Source: Olivibacter domesticus
GTDB taxonomy: Bacteria; Bacteroidota; Bacteroidia; Sphingobacteriales; Sphingobacteriaceae
Assembly: GCF_900109575.1 (NCBI RefSeq)
Contig: NZ_FOAF01000002.1
Location: forward strand, 124,001 to 188,000
Direction of reading: 5' to 3'
DNA: 64,000 nucleotides
The notes beneath the pieces were generated by a model that was not told the DNA's origin, ran no database searches, and saw nothing but the letters and a program-made list of their open reading frames with translations. The position numbers were made by a program, and so were the translations under genes. Within the stretch, counting starts at the first letter, position 1, and each line of letters starts with the position of its first letter. This document shows, piece by piece, positions 1-13,343 of the stretch.

Positions 1-533
1 CGCATTGCTTCGTTCGTTGCGTCTTTCAACGTTTTACTTCCAGACCTGGCTGGCCGAACCTCAGCACCCATCATTTTCATTCGAGCAACATTTGGTGCTT
101 GTCGTTCGATGTCAATTTCCCCCATATATACTACACATTCCATCCCCATCAATGCACAAACGGTAGCTGTAGCAACGCCATGTTGTCCTGCGCCCGTTTC
201 TGCAATAATTCTCCTCTTTCCCAAACGCTTAGCTAATAATATCTGGCCGATCGTGTTATTGATCTTGTGCGCGCCGGTATGGTTCAAATCTTCTCTTTTT
301 AAAAAAATATTCGCACCATATTTATCAGAAAGACGCTTGGCTAAATAGAGTGGTGAAGGTCTTCCTACATAGTCTTTAAGTAGTTGTTCAAATTCCTTTT
401 TAAAACTATTTTCGTTAATTATTTCTAAATAGCGGAGTCTTAATTCTTCAATATTAGGGTACATCATTTCCGGTATGTATGCTCCGCCAAAATCCCCGTA
501 ATATCCTTTTTCGTTAACCTGATAGTTATTCAT
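1..533 (-). CDS. trpB: Tryptophan synthase beta chain, N-terminal 177 residues (cut by window edge)
   Basis: TrpB condenses indole with serine in the last step of tryptophan synthesis, using PLP, as a TrpA-TrpB complex in the cytoplasm. Translating the minus strand from the ATG at 531-533 gives a typical TrpB start: a [12 protein letters not shown]-type opening, the HTGAHKIN motif at residues 85-92 with the PLP lysine at 90, and ETGAGQHG at 112-119. The reading frame is open to the window edge, so about 220 C-terminal residues are missing. It lies 22 bp after trpF and is the third structural gene of the attenuator-controlled operon trpD-trpF-trpB; trpA would be expected just outside the window. 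Identity is certain from the motifs. Confidence 0.97.
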
Positions 534-555: not shown

Positions 556-1170
556 TTATTTTTTAAGTATTGATTTTAATAATTGTACATCTTTAAACCC
601 TGCACTTGATTCAAATTTTGAATTCACATCAATAGCATGCAAACGTACGTCTGTTAACCCCCTCGCCTTCTCAATATTTTCGGCACTTAGACCTCCACTT
701 AAAAAAAAGGGTACATTTAATACATATTTACTTAATAACGACCAATCAAAACTTTCTCCGCTGCCCCCATAGTCTTCACTTTTTGTATCGAAAAGATAAT
801 AGTCAACCAAATTTTCATAAGCGATTAATTGCTCCCAATCAAATTTTTGAGAGATACCAAAGGCTTTTATAACTTCTACACCTAATTTTTTCACTCTTTC
901 TACAAATGCAGGGTTTTCGTTTCCATGTAATTGTATTAGATTTAAATCATAATCAGTAACTGCTTTTTGAATATTAGCAAATTCCTCATTTACAAAAACG
1001 CCAACCTTTTTTATGTTTTTTATCCCTTTAACGAAGTCAGGAGATAAATCATCAACATACCTCTTAGATGATTTATAAAAAATAAATCCCAAATAATCAG
1101 GTTTTAACATAGCAACATCTTCTATGTTAGCAGGGTACTTCATTCCGCAAACTTTCAGTTTAAGACTCAT
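556..1170 (-). CDS. trpF: Phosphoribosylanthranilate isomerase
   Basis: A 204-residue TIM-barrel enzyme that isomerises N-(5-phosphoribosyl)anthranilate to the ribulose form (third step from chorismate). KVCGMK at residues 6-11 carries the catalytic Cys8, the general acid Asp is D128 in LFDTK, and GGSGESFDW at 135-143 is the phosphate-binding stretch. Length is normal for the monofunctional enzyme. Its ATG (1168-1170) directly abuts the trpD stop codon (1171-1173), so the two are probably translationally coupled. No trpC (indole-glycerol-phosphate synthase) is fused to it or lies between it and its neighbours, which is unusual because many Bacteroidota keep trpC next to trpF. Confidence 0.96.
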   Translation of the reverse strand: MSLKLKVCGMKYPANIEDVAMLKPDYLGFIFYKSSKRYVDDLSPDFVKGIKNIKKVGVFVNEEFANIQKAVTDYDLNLIQLHGNENPAFVERVKKLGVEVIKAFGISQKFDWEQLIAYENLVDYYLFDTKSEDYGGSGESFDWSLLSKYVLNVPFFLSGGLSAENIEKARGLTDVRLHAIDVNSKFESSAGFKDVQLLKSILKK

Positions 1171-2175
1171 CTAATAGATCACTTTTTCTTTCTTAATCAG
1201 TCTGTTAAAACTATTTAACGCTCTTTTTGACAACAGTGATGCGTTCGCTTCATCGTAACAATCGGCAAAAGACTTATCTTGACAAATTGTTTGTATTGCA
1301 ATAGCTGCATTACACAGAACGACATTGTTCTGTGCAGTTGTTCCAGTGCCGTTTAAAACAGCAATAAAAATCCCGGCCGCTTGCTCAATAGTTTCCCCTC
1401 CCTGTATTTCATTTGCACCTACCTTATTAAATCCAAGCTTATCCAACGGTATATAACGTTCACCTGAATTGCCGATCACTTTAAAATCACTTGTTAGCGA
1501 TATTTCATCATAACCATCTAGGGCATGCAATATTGAATATTGTTTAGTTGTTTTTTGATAAAGGTAACCGTAAAGTCGAGCTAATTCTAAGCTAAACACA
1601 CCTACTGATTGATAAATCGGTTCGGCAGGATTCACTAAAGGTCCCAACATATTGAAAAAAGTTTTCACACCCAATTCACGACGTATAGGTGCTACAGTTT
1701 TCATCGCTGGATGAAACAATGGTGCATGCAAAAAACATATATTTGCTTCATTTAGACTTCTAGAAACCTCATCAAGTTCATTTGTAAACTGATAACCCAA
1801 ATATTCAATAACATTAGAAGACCCGCATCCGGATGAAACACCATAATTACCATGCTTTGCTACATGGTACCCTGCACCCGCAACCACAAAAGATGCCAGT
1901 GTGGATATATTAAAAGTATTTTTTCCATCACCACCAGTACCACATAAATCAATTAATTTATAGTCCTTAAAATCGACCTTTAAGCATAAGTCCAACATCG
2001 CATCACGAAAACCAGCAAGCTCTTCTACGGTAATACTCCGCATACAATAGGCTGTCATAAAGGCTGCCATCTGGGAGGTATTATATTTTCCAGAAGTTAT
2101 ATTGGTTAATATTTCATAAGCTTCCTCCTTAGTAAAGGTTTTGCTTTCGAATAAGTGGGATAATATTTTTTTCAT
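1171..2175 (-). CDS. trpD: Anthranilate phosphoribosyltransferase
   Basis: Transfers the phosphoribosyl group of PRPP to anthranilate. The 334-residue protein has the PRPP-binding CGTGGDG loop at 78-84, the KHGN motif at 107-110 followed by a VSS-x-CGSSN stretch instead of the more usual KHGNR-SSKSGSAD, and an RRELG-x-TFFN-x-LGPL-x-NP block near 165-185. It is the first structural gene of the operon: the 137 bp before it contain an intrinsic terminator and a Trp-rich leader peptide, not trpE, trpG or trpC. It runs head to tail into trpF with no gap. Expression should therefore respond to tryptophanyl-tRNA charging through the attenuator (inference). Confidence 0.96.
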   Translation of the reverse strand: MKKILSHLFESKTFTKEEAYEILTNITSGKYNTSQMAAFMTAYCMRSITVEELAGFRDAMLDLCLKVDFKDYKLIDLCGTGGDGKNTFNISTLASFVVAGAGYHVAKHGNYGVSSGCGSSNVIEYLGYQFTNELDEVSRSLNEANICFLHAPLFHPAMKTVAPIRRELGVKTFFNMLGPLVNPAEPIYQSVGVFSLELARLYGYLYQKTTKQYSILHALDGYDEISLTSDFKVIGNSGERYIPLDKLGFNKVGANEIQGGETIEQAAGIFIAVLNGTGTTAQNNVVLCNAAIAIQTICQDKSFADCYDEANASLLSKRALNSFNRLIKKEKVIY

Positions 2176-2233
2176 TGATAATATAGTACCAAAATCTGTT
2201 ATTTAAATTAAATGTAGCGCATTTATAATTCCA

Positions 2234-2308
2234 TAAAAAAAGGCTTGCTATATGGCAAGCCTTTTTGTTAAGTTTTTATATTGATGTACTACAAAATGGT
2301 TTTGCCAC
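2234..2308 (-). promoter_or_regulatory. trp operon attenuator: terminator and competing antiterminator
   Basis: On the minus-strand RNA the terminator pairs 2255-2261 with 2242-2248 (7 bp GC-rich core, extended by an A/U stem) and ends in a U run read from 2234-2241. The upstream stretch 2291-2308 is complementary to the 5' half of that terminator (2252-2268): GUGGCAA pairs with UUGCCAU, CC with GG and UUUUGU with ACAAAA, about 15 bp with two small interruptions. The same stretch can also pair with RNA at the first Trp codon of the leader peptide. This is the four-segment arrangement of a leader-peptide attenuator. Seen directly by complementarity; folding energies were not computed. Confidence 0.88.
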
Positions 2309-2311
2309 AAA

Positions 2312-2359
2312 TTATCCTTCGTGCCACCACCAATTTATATGTGCAAAAATTGTTTTCAT
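2312..2359 (-). CDS. trpL: trp operon leader peptide (15 residues, three tandem Trp)
   Basis: The minus strand encodes ATG to TAA, MKTIFAHINWWWHEG. The Trp codons are three consecutive TGG at 2324-2332. A purine-rich GGAAGA sits just before the ATG. The peptide lies 45 bp upstream of a terminator that itself precedes trpD, and the RNA between them can form an antiterminator. By analogy with enterobacterial TrpL, a ribosome stalled at the Trp codons for lack of charged tRNA-Trp would free segment 2 to pair with segment 3 and let transcription reach trpD. The peptide itself needs no function. Its size and position are exactly what an attenuator requires. Confidence 0.9.
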   Translation of the reverse strand: MKTIFAHINWWWHEG

Positions 2360-2369
2360 TTTCTTCCAG

Positions 2370-2401
2370 CAAATATGATTAATTAGATCAATAAATGCAA
2401 A
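2370..2401 (-). promoter_or_regulatory. Probable trp operon promoter (Bacteroidota type)
   Basis: On the minus strand a TTTG (2398-2401) is followed after 20 nt by CATATTTG (2370-2377), a 7/8 match to the -7 consensus TAnnTTTG with the spacing usual for the main sigma factor in this phylum. Transcription would begin about 5 nt ahead of the trpL start codon. Confidence 0.65.
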
Positions 2402-2426
2402 ATAATTTGAAAATTAGTTGAGTCAA

Positions 2427-3239
2427 CTAATACTTGATTAATGCATTTTTCTCTTTTGTAAACAATGTAAACACTTTTTTATCTACCCAAGCAGGGAAAA
2501 GTTTATTCATCCATACCGCAAGCTTTCCTTGACCAGTCATAATTAAAGTTCGTTTTCGCTTTTTAATACCCTCCAGTATTATTTCTGCTACTTGTTCGGC
2601 AGTCATCATCTTCTCTTCTTCCATGCTTGTTTCACCAAATTGATCGCCGTTCTTATCGAGTGCTGTATTTCGAATATTAGACGCCGTAAATCCTGGACAA
2701 GCTACCATCACATGTAATCCTGTTCTTAAATTCTCTACCCTTAGTGATTCCATAAAGCCGTTCATCGCAAATTTGGACGCCGAATAACCTGTACGACCAG
2801 GTAGACCTCTATATCCCGCAATAGACGATACACTAACCACAGAACCCTTGTTATTAAGCAAAGAAGGTAAAGCATATTTTGTACAGTAAACGGCACCCCA
2901 AAAATTTATATCCATTAGGTCTTTCAACACTAATAGATCCAAATCTTTAAACAATGCCCGCATACTCACGCCCGCATTGTTTATTAAAATATCAATTCTT
3001 TTAAATGTTAATAATGCTTGGTCAATCAACCGTTTGCAATCTTCTTCTTTAGAAACATCACATTGTACCGCAATTACCTTAACCTTGCTTTCATATTCTA
3101 ATTGTTGAGCAATTTCACAAAGAGTAACGTATTTTCTTGCTCCCAAAACTAGATTCGCTCCCTCTTTTGCTAAAGATTTGGCCAAAGCAAGACCTATTCC
3201 TGATGAAGCGCCAGTTATGATAATTGTCTTGTTTTTCAT
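2427..3239 (-). CDS. Short-chain dehydrogenase/reductase
   Basis: A classical SDR of 270 residues. TGASSGIG at 9-16 binds the dinucleotide, NNAG is at 87-90, and the catalytic set is Ser138/139, Tyr152 and Lys156 (YSASK). The substrate cannot be told from sequence. A longer reading from 3278 would overlap recR by 29 bp and add 13 residues that do not look like SDR sequence; the ATG at 3237-3239 puts the Rossmann strand at the very N-terminus and starts 10 bp after the recR stop, so I chose it. It probably shares a transcript with recR. Downstream lies the trp promoter, so its message must end in or read through the trp leader. Confidence 0.88.
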   Translation of the reverse strand: MKNKTIIITGASSGIGLALAKSLAKEGANLVLGARKYVTLCEIAQQLEYESKVKVIAVQCDVSKEEDCKRLIDQALLTFKRIDILINNAGVSMRALFKDLDLLVLKDLMDINFWGAVYCTKYALPSLLNNKGSVVSVSSIAGYRGLPGRTGYSASKFAMNGFMESLRVENLRTGLHVMVACPGFTASNIRNTALDKNGDQFGETSMEEEKMMTAEQVAEIILEGIKKRKRTLIMTGQGKLAVWMNKLFPAWVDKKVFTLFTKEKNALIKY

Positions 3240-3249
3240 GTACTTATTA

Positions 3250-3864
3250 CTAGGCGATGCTTCTTTCATAAGGAACACGTGTTACTATGGAACGTCCAAG
3301 CGTTACTTCATCTACATACTCCAGCTCCCCACCAAAAGCAATACCTCTTGCTATTGTACTGATCTGTATATTAAAATCTTTCAATTTTTTATACAAATAA
3401 AAAATTGTTGTATCTCCTTCCATTGTAGCACTTAATGCCAAAATCACCTCTTCCACGTGACTCTCTTGCAATCTCTGCACCAATTTTTCTATATTTAAAT
3501 CAGAAGGACCAACTCCATCCATAGGTGAGATTAATCCACCTAAAACGTGATAGACTCCATTGAATTGATTGGTATTCTCAATTGCCATTACATCGCGCGT
3601 ATCTTCAACCACACATATTAATCCTTTATCTCTTTTAGGGGCCGTACAGATCTCACATATAACCTGATCTGAAATATTATGGCATACAGTACAGAAACAA
3701 ATATCTGATTTAAGTTTCATCAAAGACTCGCTAAACCGCTGTACATCTGTCGCAGGTTGATTAAGTATGTGTAGCACTAACCGTAATGCTGTTTTTTGCC
3801 CGATTCCAGGTAGCCGGCTAAACTCATTTACCGCATTCTCTAAGAGCTTGGAAGAAAAATTCAT
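3250..3864 (-). CDS. recR: Recombination mediator RecR
   Basis: RecR acts with RecO and RecF to load RecA at gaps and stalled forks. The 204-residue protein has a helix-hairpin-helix at 17-29 (LPGIGQKTA), a four-cysteine zinc site (C58, C61, C70, C73), a Toprim domain from about residue 81 with E87, and a C-terminal segment including a Walker-like region. An in-frame upstream start at 3900 would add a Phe-rich dodecapeptide and is rejected: typical RecR proteins begin MNFSS-type, and a -7 promoter box lies between the two starts. It is followed closely by the SDR gene. Confidence 0.95.
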   Translation of the reverse strand: MNFSSKLLENAVNEFSRLPGIGQKTALRLVLHILNQPATDVQRFSESLMKLKSDICFCTVCHNISDQVICEICTAPKRDKGLICVVEDTRDVMAIENTNQFNGVYHVLGGLISPMDGVGPSDLNIEKLVQRLQESHVEEVILALSATMEGDTTIFYLYKKLKDFNIQISTIARGIAFGGELEYVDEVTLGRSIVTRVPYERSIA

Positions 3865-13255: not shown

Positions 13256-13343
13256 TGGCGGAAAGTGAGGGATTCGAACCCCCGGTCCTGTTACAGACAA
13301 CGGTTTTCAAGACCGCCGCATTCGACCACTCTGCCAACTTTCC
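13256..13343 (-). tRNA. tRNA-Ser (anticodon TGA)
   Basis: An 88-nt serine tRNA with encoded CCA. The acceptor stem GGAAAGT/ACTTTCC pairs fully, the anticodon loop reads CTTGAAA (anticodon UGA, codon UCA), there is a long variable arm typical of serine tRNAs, and the T arm is GGGGG-TTCGAAT-CCCTC. The discriminator base is G as expected for Ser. Short ORFs crossing this gene on both strands are spurious. Confidence 0.97.

Follow-up and report, generated by a model that had tools for sequence, protein, structure and literature searches.

The 64,000-nucleotide stretch of Olivibacter domesticus DNA analysed here (the window) carries on its minus strand, from position 2401 to 2235, a compact leader region in which a promoter, a 15-codon ORF (MKTIFAHINWWWHEG), a candidate antiterminator strand and a U-run terminator follow one another, with trpD-trpF-trpB downstream (Table 1). 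The spacer between the -33 TTTG and the -7 box CATATTTG is exactly 20 nt long. The box differs from TAnnTTTG at its first base and stands 10 nt before the leader ATG (2359-2357). A count, over the two strands of the window, of ATG-started ORFs that are at most 35 codons long and contain a pair of neighbouring Trp codons gave only four, the leader included. The leader RNA folded with a z-score of -4.74, none of 200 shuffled sequences being equally stable, and the antiterminator fold comprised 16 predicted pairs (-9.9 kcal/mol). A preliminary description made from the sequence had proposed a 15-residue ORF with three consecutive TGG codons and a TTTG-N20-CATATTTG promoter, and both are present as described. 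It had also proposed a pairing of about 15 bp between region 2 and the 5' half of the terminator and a rival upstream pairing at the first Trp codon; both were reproduced in predicted folds, the latter in the inner part of the 1:2 hairpin. Its term trp operon needs a small correction, as the genes behind the leader encode part of the pathway and trpE-trpG-trpC lie on another contig (C6). Upstream of the leader, an SDR-family oxidoreductase gene occupies positions 2427-3278 of the minus strand (NF004825, 324.9 bits).

Table 1. Features of the trpD leader region and its downstream genes in the window, and the trpE leader ORF of the same genome
Feature	Position	Strand	Basis
-33 promoter element TTTG	2401-2398	minus	sequence; family spacing of TTG
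-7 promoter box CATATTTG	2377-2370	minus	sequence; identical 8-mer in family leaders
Predicted 5' UTR, 5-6 nt	2360..2365	minus	box-to-start distance known from F. johnsoniae
Leader ORF MKTIFAHINWWWHEG with stop	2359-2312	minus	sequence; family conservation
Three consecutive Trp codons TGGTGGTGG	2332-2324	minus	kept in family leaders
1:2 hairpin, inner part (Trp codons with region 2)	2339-2290	minus	predicted fold; pair counts
Region 2, candidate antiterminator strand	2308-2291	minus	predicted fold with terminator 5' arm
Intrinsic terminator (regions 3:4), U-run, 12 bp, -16.1 kcal/mol	2266-2235	minus	fold; covariation
trpD	1171..2175, start at 2175	minus	NCBIfam TIGR01245, 297.8 bits (cut-off 199.05)
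trpF	556..1170	minus	top-scoring NCBIfam model is phosphoribosylanthranilate isomerase (160.5 bits, below its cut-off of 215)
trpB, 5' part, continues beyond the window	1..533	minus	TIGR00263, 268.2 bits over 177 residues in the window
trpE leader ORF MMTIETSLRNWWWPNKEQRREHVFMA with WWW run	G000:C6:222944-222864 (L034 2160-2080)	minus	terminator follows; trpE-trpG-trpC downstream

The Rfam family RF01692 (Bacteroid-trp) reached 53.1 bits at window positions 2379-2254 (gathering score 49; E 0.0015 when the window is searched as a whole), and the match spanned model positions 1-131 of 131. Besides RF01692 and one tRNA gene (13259-13343, minus strand; 59.3 bits), no Rfam family scored over its cut-off in the window, RF00513 (Trp_leader) giving no match at cut-off. 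The likeness to RF01692 extends to the Trp codons in a hairpin, the terminator arm and the position before a tryptophan biosynthesis gene in Bacteroidota, here trpD-trpF-trpB; the difference is that our leader precedes the trpD of a split pathway. The genome gave two more, weaker hits to RF01692, one of 27.1 bits (E 2.3) and one of 24.5 bits (E 6.8), which were taken as chance. The parts also stand in the same order as in E. coli trpL (RF00513), with a leader peptide containing adjacent Trp codons, 1:2, 2:3 and 3:4 pairings (predicted in our leader) and trp genes downstream. The E. coli leader differs in its longer 5' UTR and in having two Trp codons.

The leader is a member of an already known kind, in print since 2010, when the Bacteroid-trp motif was published for Bacteroidetes (Weinberg et al., PMC2864571, accessible part). 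The preliminary description had been unsure how far such attenuators had been described in this phylum; its trp attenuator interpretation is supported, and the element was known there as RF01692. According to the available portions of two further papers, Bacteroid-trp has been noted before the F. psychrophilum trp operon (PMC6414381), and a start-site study of this species reports strong indications that amino-acid operons are preceded by leader-peptide attenuators, as well as structured elements before pheA, hisG and others (PMC9723704). Our leader resembles these inferred F. psychrophilum attenuators in both respects, namely leader-peptide attenuation before amino-acid operons and Bacteroid-trp before the trp operon; the accessible parts of these texts hold no discussion of the 5' UTR length of the leader ORFs or of a second trp leader. 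For the published motif there are RNA data from one Flavobacterium, and no direct test of a Bacteroidota trp leader was found in the literature searched.

We searched 151 genomes of the Sphingobacteriaceae, among them Sphingobacterium, Pedobacter, Mucilaginibacter and Parapedobacter. trpD was found at threshold in 134 of these, and 133 trpD upstream regions were read. Conservation of the tandem Trp codons in relatives had been suggested as a check in the preliminary description, and such conservation was found: an ORF of at most 35 codons with TGGTGG preceded trpD in 122 of the 133 regions and was ATG-started in 121. A Trp-codon leader together with a -7 box was present in 117 of the 133, and a terminator was present in all 117. 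Three adjacent Trp codons occurred in 100 of these leaders and two in 17, the first Trp was residue 10 in 95, and outside the Trp run the peptides varied widely across the family. The 8-mer CATATTTG was found in 82 of the 117 promoters, and in 101 a TTG preceded the -7 box by 18-20 nt, a triplet that was rare at control spacings. This comparison of sequences establishes the leader, its Trp codons, the terminator and the promoter spacing. Of 80 named trpD loci, some of them also among the 133 upstream regions, 75 likewise had a leader with a box. Leader-peptide attenuation before trpD would be the rule in Sphingobacteriaceae, and the Rfam model finds only part of it (over cut-off in 8 of the 151 genomes and at E 0.01 in 40, as compared with the 117 leaders found by anatomy).

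Eleven trpD upstream regions that looked negative were inspected, and seven still had a box followed by an ATG. Among these G137, for which one listing gave a GTG ORF, has an ATG-started leader with a box and is counted in the 117. Outside the 117 stand G073, with a leader-like ORF that has a TTG start only, and G067, G089, G106 and G128, each with an ATG leader but no box by our rule. G148 was excluded from the trpD set because its trpD match has no N-terminus, and in G015 the trpD upstream region ends at the contig end, the leader lying on another contig (L007). The strong retention of the -33 TTG at the family trpD-leader promoters contrasts with F. johnsoniae, in which this element is much less evident according to the accessible part of PMC6847099.

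Covariation was scored in an alignment (A1) of 47 of the 117 leaders, selected at less than 80% identity. In the terminator 25 cells were changed on both sides as compared with 6.3 in shuffles, a result reached by 0 of 500 shuffles. The 1:2 hairpin received weaker support than the terminator (58.6% of cells paired; score reached by 5 of 500 shuffles), and the 2:3 antiterminator showed no covariation among the 47 leaders, its score being reached by 328 of 500 shuffles. The covarying stems looked for on the suggestion of the preliminary description were found in the terminator and, more weakly, in the 1:2 hairpin, but the antiterminator is kept without covariation. Its core, GGCAA:UUGCC, pairs in 40-44 of the 47 sequences. 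Column 123, in the core of the terminator 5' arm, was G-C in 32 sequences, C-G in 14 and A-U in 1, and this base, at which the terminator exchanges G for C, is the one left unpaired by the antiterminator. We read this pattern as the mark of a double constraint. In single leaders the significance of the pairing energies was partial, with at most 5 of 100 shuffles doing as well for 2:3 in 62 of the 117 leaders and for 1:2 in 78.

At equilibrium the full leader of the window kept its terminator in all three ribosome states, and the antiterminator was absent. The model therefore needs the order of co-transcriptional folding, and shortened transcripts were folded. The order of synthesis also matters in the attenuation known from E. 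coli. Each transcript was folded up to the terminator 5' arm with the ribosome footprint masked. Across the 117 leaders the mean probability that the 5' arm was captured upstream was 0.80 with the ribosome stalled at the last Trp codon, 0.30 with the ribosome at the stop codon and 0.35 with no ribosome. The difference between the stalled and the stop state exceeded 0.3 in 97 of the 117 trpD leaders as compared with 147 of 1170 shuffles. For the window leader the values were 0.72, 0.39 and 0.27, respectively, so that its contrast of 0.33 lies near the low end of the 97 leaders above 0.3. Stalled capture of at least 0.5 was seen in 115 of the 117 leaders; since 57.7% of shuffles also captured the 5' arm in this state, capture taken alone is weak evidence. 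The switch between folding states is a prediction of these models, which support stall-dependent antitermination.

Taken together, the match to RF01692, the trp genes downstream, the conservation and the folds make it very likely that trpD-trpF-trpB are under the control of a Bacteroid-trp leader acting as a ribosome-mediated transcription attenuator. The RNA would begin about 6 nt before the leader AUG, and a ribosome would load at the RNA 5' end soon after its emergence. With ample Trp-tRNA the ribosome would reach the stop codon and cover region 2, the terminator would fold and transcription would end before trpD. With scarce Trp-tRNA the ribosome would stall on TGGTGGTGG and block the 1:2 hairpin; region 2 could then capture the terminator 5' arm before the 3' arm is made, and the polymerase would read on. 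An untranslated RNA would form the 1:2 hairpin and the terminator, giving a default off state. The transcription start, the translation of the leader and the response to tryptophan are the parts of this scheme that we infer.

The most informative point of the preliminary description was that ribosome entry at the leader would be nearly leaderless, and the predicted spacing on which it rests holds throughout the family. The -7 box lay a median of 10 nt before the leader ATG in the trpD leaders, and at most 13 nt in 101 of 117, with the leader start taken as the first in-frame ATG after the box, a rule that favours short distances. In F. johnsoniae 4 or 5 nt separate the -7 box from the transcription start (PMC6847099, accessible part); by a 4-nt rule, a distance of at most 13 nt means a 5' UTR of less than 10 nt, and the predicted 5' UTR of the family trpD leaders is about 6 nt. 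As far as the available portions of the published work go, leaders are longer than 10 nt in 87% of the F. johnsoniae transcripts predicted with a probable promoter (PMC6847099), about 3.7% of 5' UTRs in B. thetaiotaomicron are shorter than 10 nt (PMC7366714), and 5.5% of the examined mRNAs of F. psychrophilum are leaderless, the median 5' UTR being 24 bp (PMC9723704). The short box-to-ATG spacing, a property read from sequence, is thus a conserved trait of the family, and set beside these published 5' UTR lengths of the phylum it is unusual.

A second predicted attenuator precedes trpE-trpG-trpC in the same genome. Its leader ORF, MMTIETSLRNWWWPNKEQRREHVFMA, is preceded by a box, TACGTTTG, that fits TAnnTTTG and lies 4 nt before the first ATG, which gives a predicted 5' UTR of 0 nt, or of 2-3 nt when counted from the second ATG. 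In the folding model the 5' arm of this leader was captured with a probability of 0.45 in the stalled state and 0.04 at the stop codon. No Rfam family scored over cut-off on this leader region; a lax scan gave 18 matches, all below their cut-offs, and RF00513 (Trp_leader) reached 17.7 bits against a cut-off of 41. We examined 90 of 135 trpE places in the family (the 30 best and 60 at even steps) and found Trp-codon leaders in 67 of the 90 upstream regions, the run of Trp codons being three long in 30 and two long in 37. In these 67 leaders the box distance was 3-11 nt (median 7), a terminator was always present, and the difference between the stalled and the stop state exceeded 0.3 in 63 as compared with 124 of 670 shuffles. 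The 23 misses comprised 11 from genus g14 and 5 others without TGGTGG, and 7 in which TGGTGG was present but the start codon was GTG, the box deviated from the consensus or a similar departure was seen. Both leaders were present in 59 of the 87 genomes in which both upstream regions were examined, the trpD leader only in 18, the trpE leader only in 5 and neither in 5. In 20 genomes picked for having trpD and trpE on one contig, the two genes lay 0.39 to 3.9 Mb apart, so the split of the pathway is no artefact of assembly.

For the rest of the phylum we used a model, R1, that covers the leader from the ATG onward, so that the promoter played no part in finding matches. Of 395 genomes of the phylum, 155 had an R1 match at E 0.01. 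Taking one match per genome and going down to E 1.7e-4, we looked at 79 of the 144 non-family genomes in which R1 matched; G229 and G235 were skipped in that range because their R1 matches were partial. Sixty-seven of the 79 matches stood before trpE, 3 before trpB (L276, L284 and L318, where the leader-model match precedes trpB and not trpE) and 9 before no trp gene; these 9 were taken as chance. By our rule a box was present in 54 of the 79, at a distance of at most 13 nt in 25, of 16-18 nt in 23 and of other lengths in 6. In family f24, 12 of 15 matches before trpE had no box. Going by these predicted distances, many leaders of the phylum, though not all, have a short 5' UTR.

It could be argued that the terminator does no more than stop transcripts arriving from the SDR gene, which lies upstream on the same strand, that the short ORF is incidental and that trpD has its own promoter downstream of the terminator with no attenuation taking place; the distance of at least 63 nt from terminator to trpD would give space for such a promoter. 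This explanation is very improbable in view of the family-wide occurrence of adjacent Trp codons at a fixed place and of a promoter box before the ORF, of the position before trpE of most R1 matches outside the family, and of the match to RF01692. A less drastic alternative accepts the attenuator and questions its short 5' UTR, with the main transcription start further upstream or another start codon in use. The starts are predicted, they follow the first in-frame ATG rule, and a later ATG in the same frame still precedes the Trp run in 11 of the 117 trpD and 21 of the 67 trpE leaders. Moreover, distances of 2-3 nt between box and ATG in G097, G113 and G148 (2 nt in G097 and G113) cannot be right as predicted, so that translation of these leaders probably starts further on. 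However, 101 of the 117 leaders have a full promoter here, with the -33 TTG 18-20 nt from the -7 box. The constant position of the first Trp argues that the chosen start is mostly right, and this fixed position is explained without any start between box and ATG. We regard a longer 5' UTR as unlikely, with a minor chance of being right.

In the alphaproteobacterium S. meliloti, the accessible text of PMC7298713 reports that the trpL transcript is fully leaderless, its first nucleotides being the trpL AUG, and that rnTrpL, which arises from attenuation, destabilises trpDC mRNA in trans. The likeness to our leader, limited to that portion of the paper, is a Trp attenuator with the RNA start at the leader AUG, or, by prediction, near it in the window; the differences are the host, the position before trpE(G) and the lack of any 5' UTR, compared with the predicted 5-6 nt here. 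The accessible parts of two Corynebacterium papers describe leaderless his operons and attenuator leader peptides, and hold no statement that an attenuator leader peptide is itself leaderless. The Olivibacter leaders, likewise predicted to start almost at the RNA end, belong to split trp genes, and their RNA or peptide might also act in trans like S. meliloti rnTrpL and peTrpL, the attenuation of one trp unit then affecting another. We consider such an activity improbable; a single target common to the peptides is made less likely by their wide variation outside the Trp run.

We lean slightly towards the view that in Sphingobacteriaceae the split pathway consists of two distant units, each with its own Trp-codon attenuator, the trpE leaders forming a group of their own, and that both leader ORFs lie about 0-13 nt from the RNA 5' end by selected design. 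Working without a Shine-Dalgarno sequence, a ribosome that loads at the RNA end at once could keep step with the polymerase before the decision region of about 120 nt is complete. No description of family-wide nearly leaderless trp leaders, or of a double attenuator of a split pathway, was found for the phylum in the open-licence literature searched. Two attenuators with a nearly absent 5' UTR would make a clean test system for early ribosome loading without a Shine-Dalgarno sequence, set against a polymerase about a hundred nucleotides ahead.

Genus g14 (e.g. L209, L212 and L213) differs within the family: all 11 sampled members are without a TGGTGG leader before trpE and many g14 genomes keep the trpD leader, so that one of the two attenuators seems to have been lost or changed in this genus.
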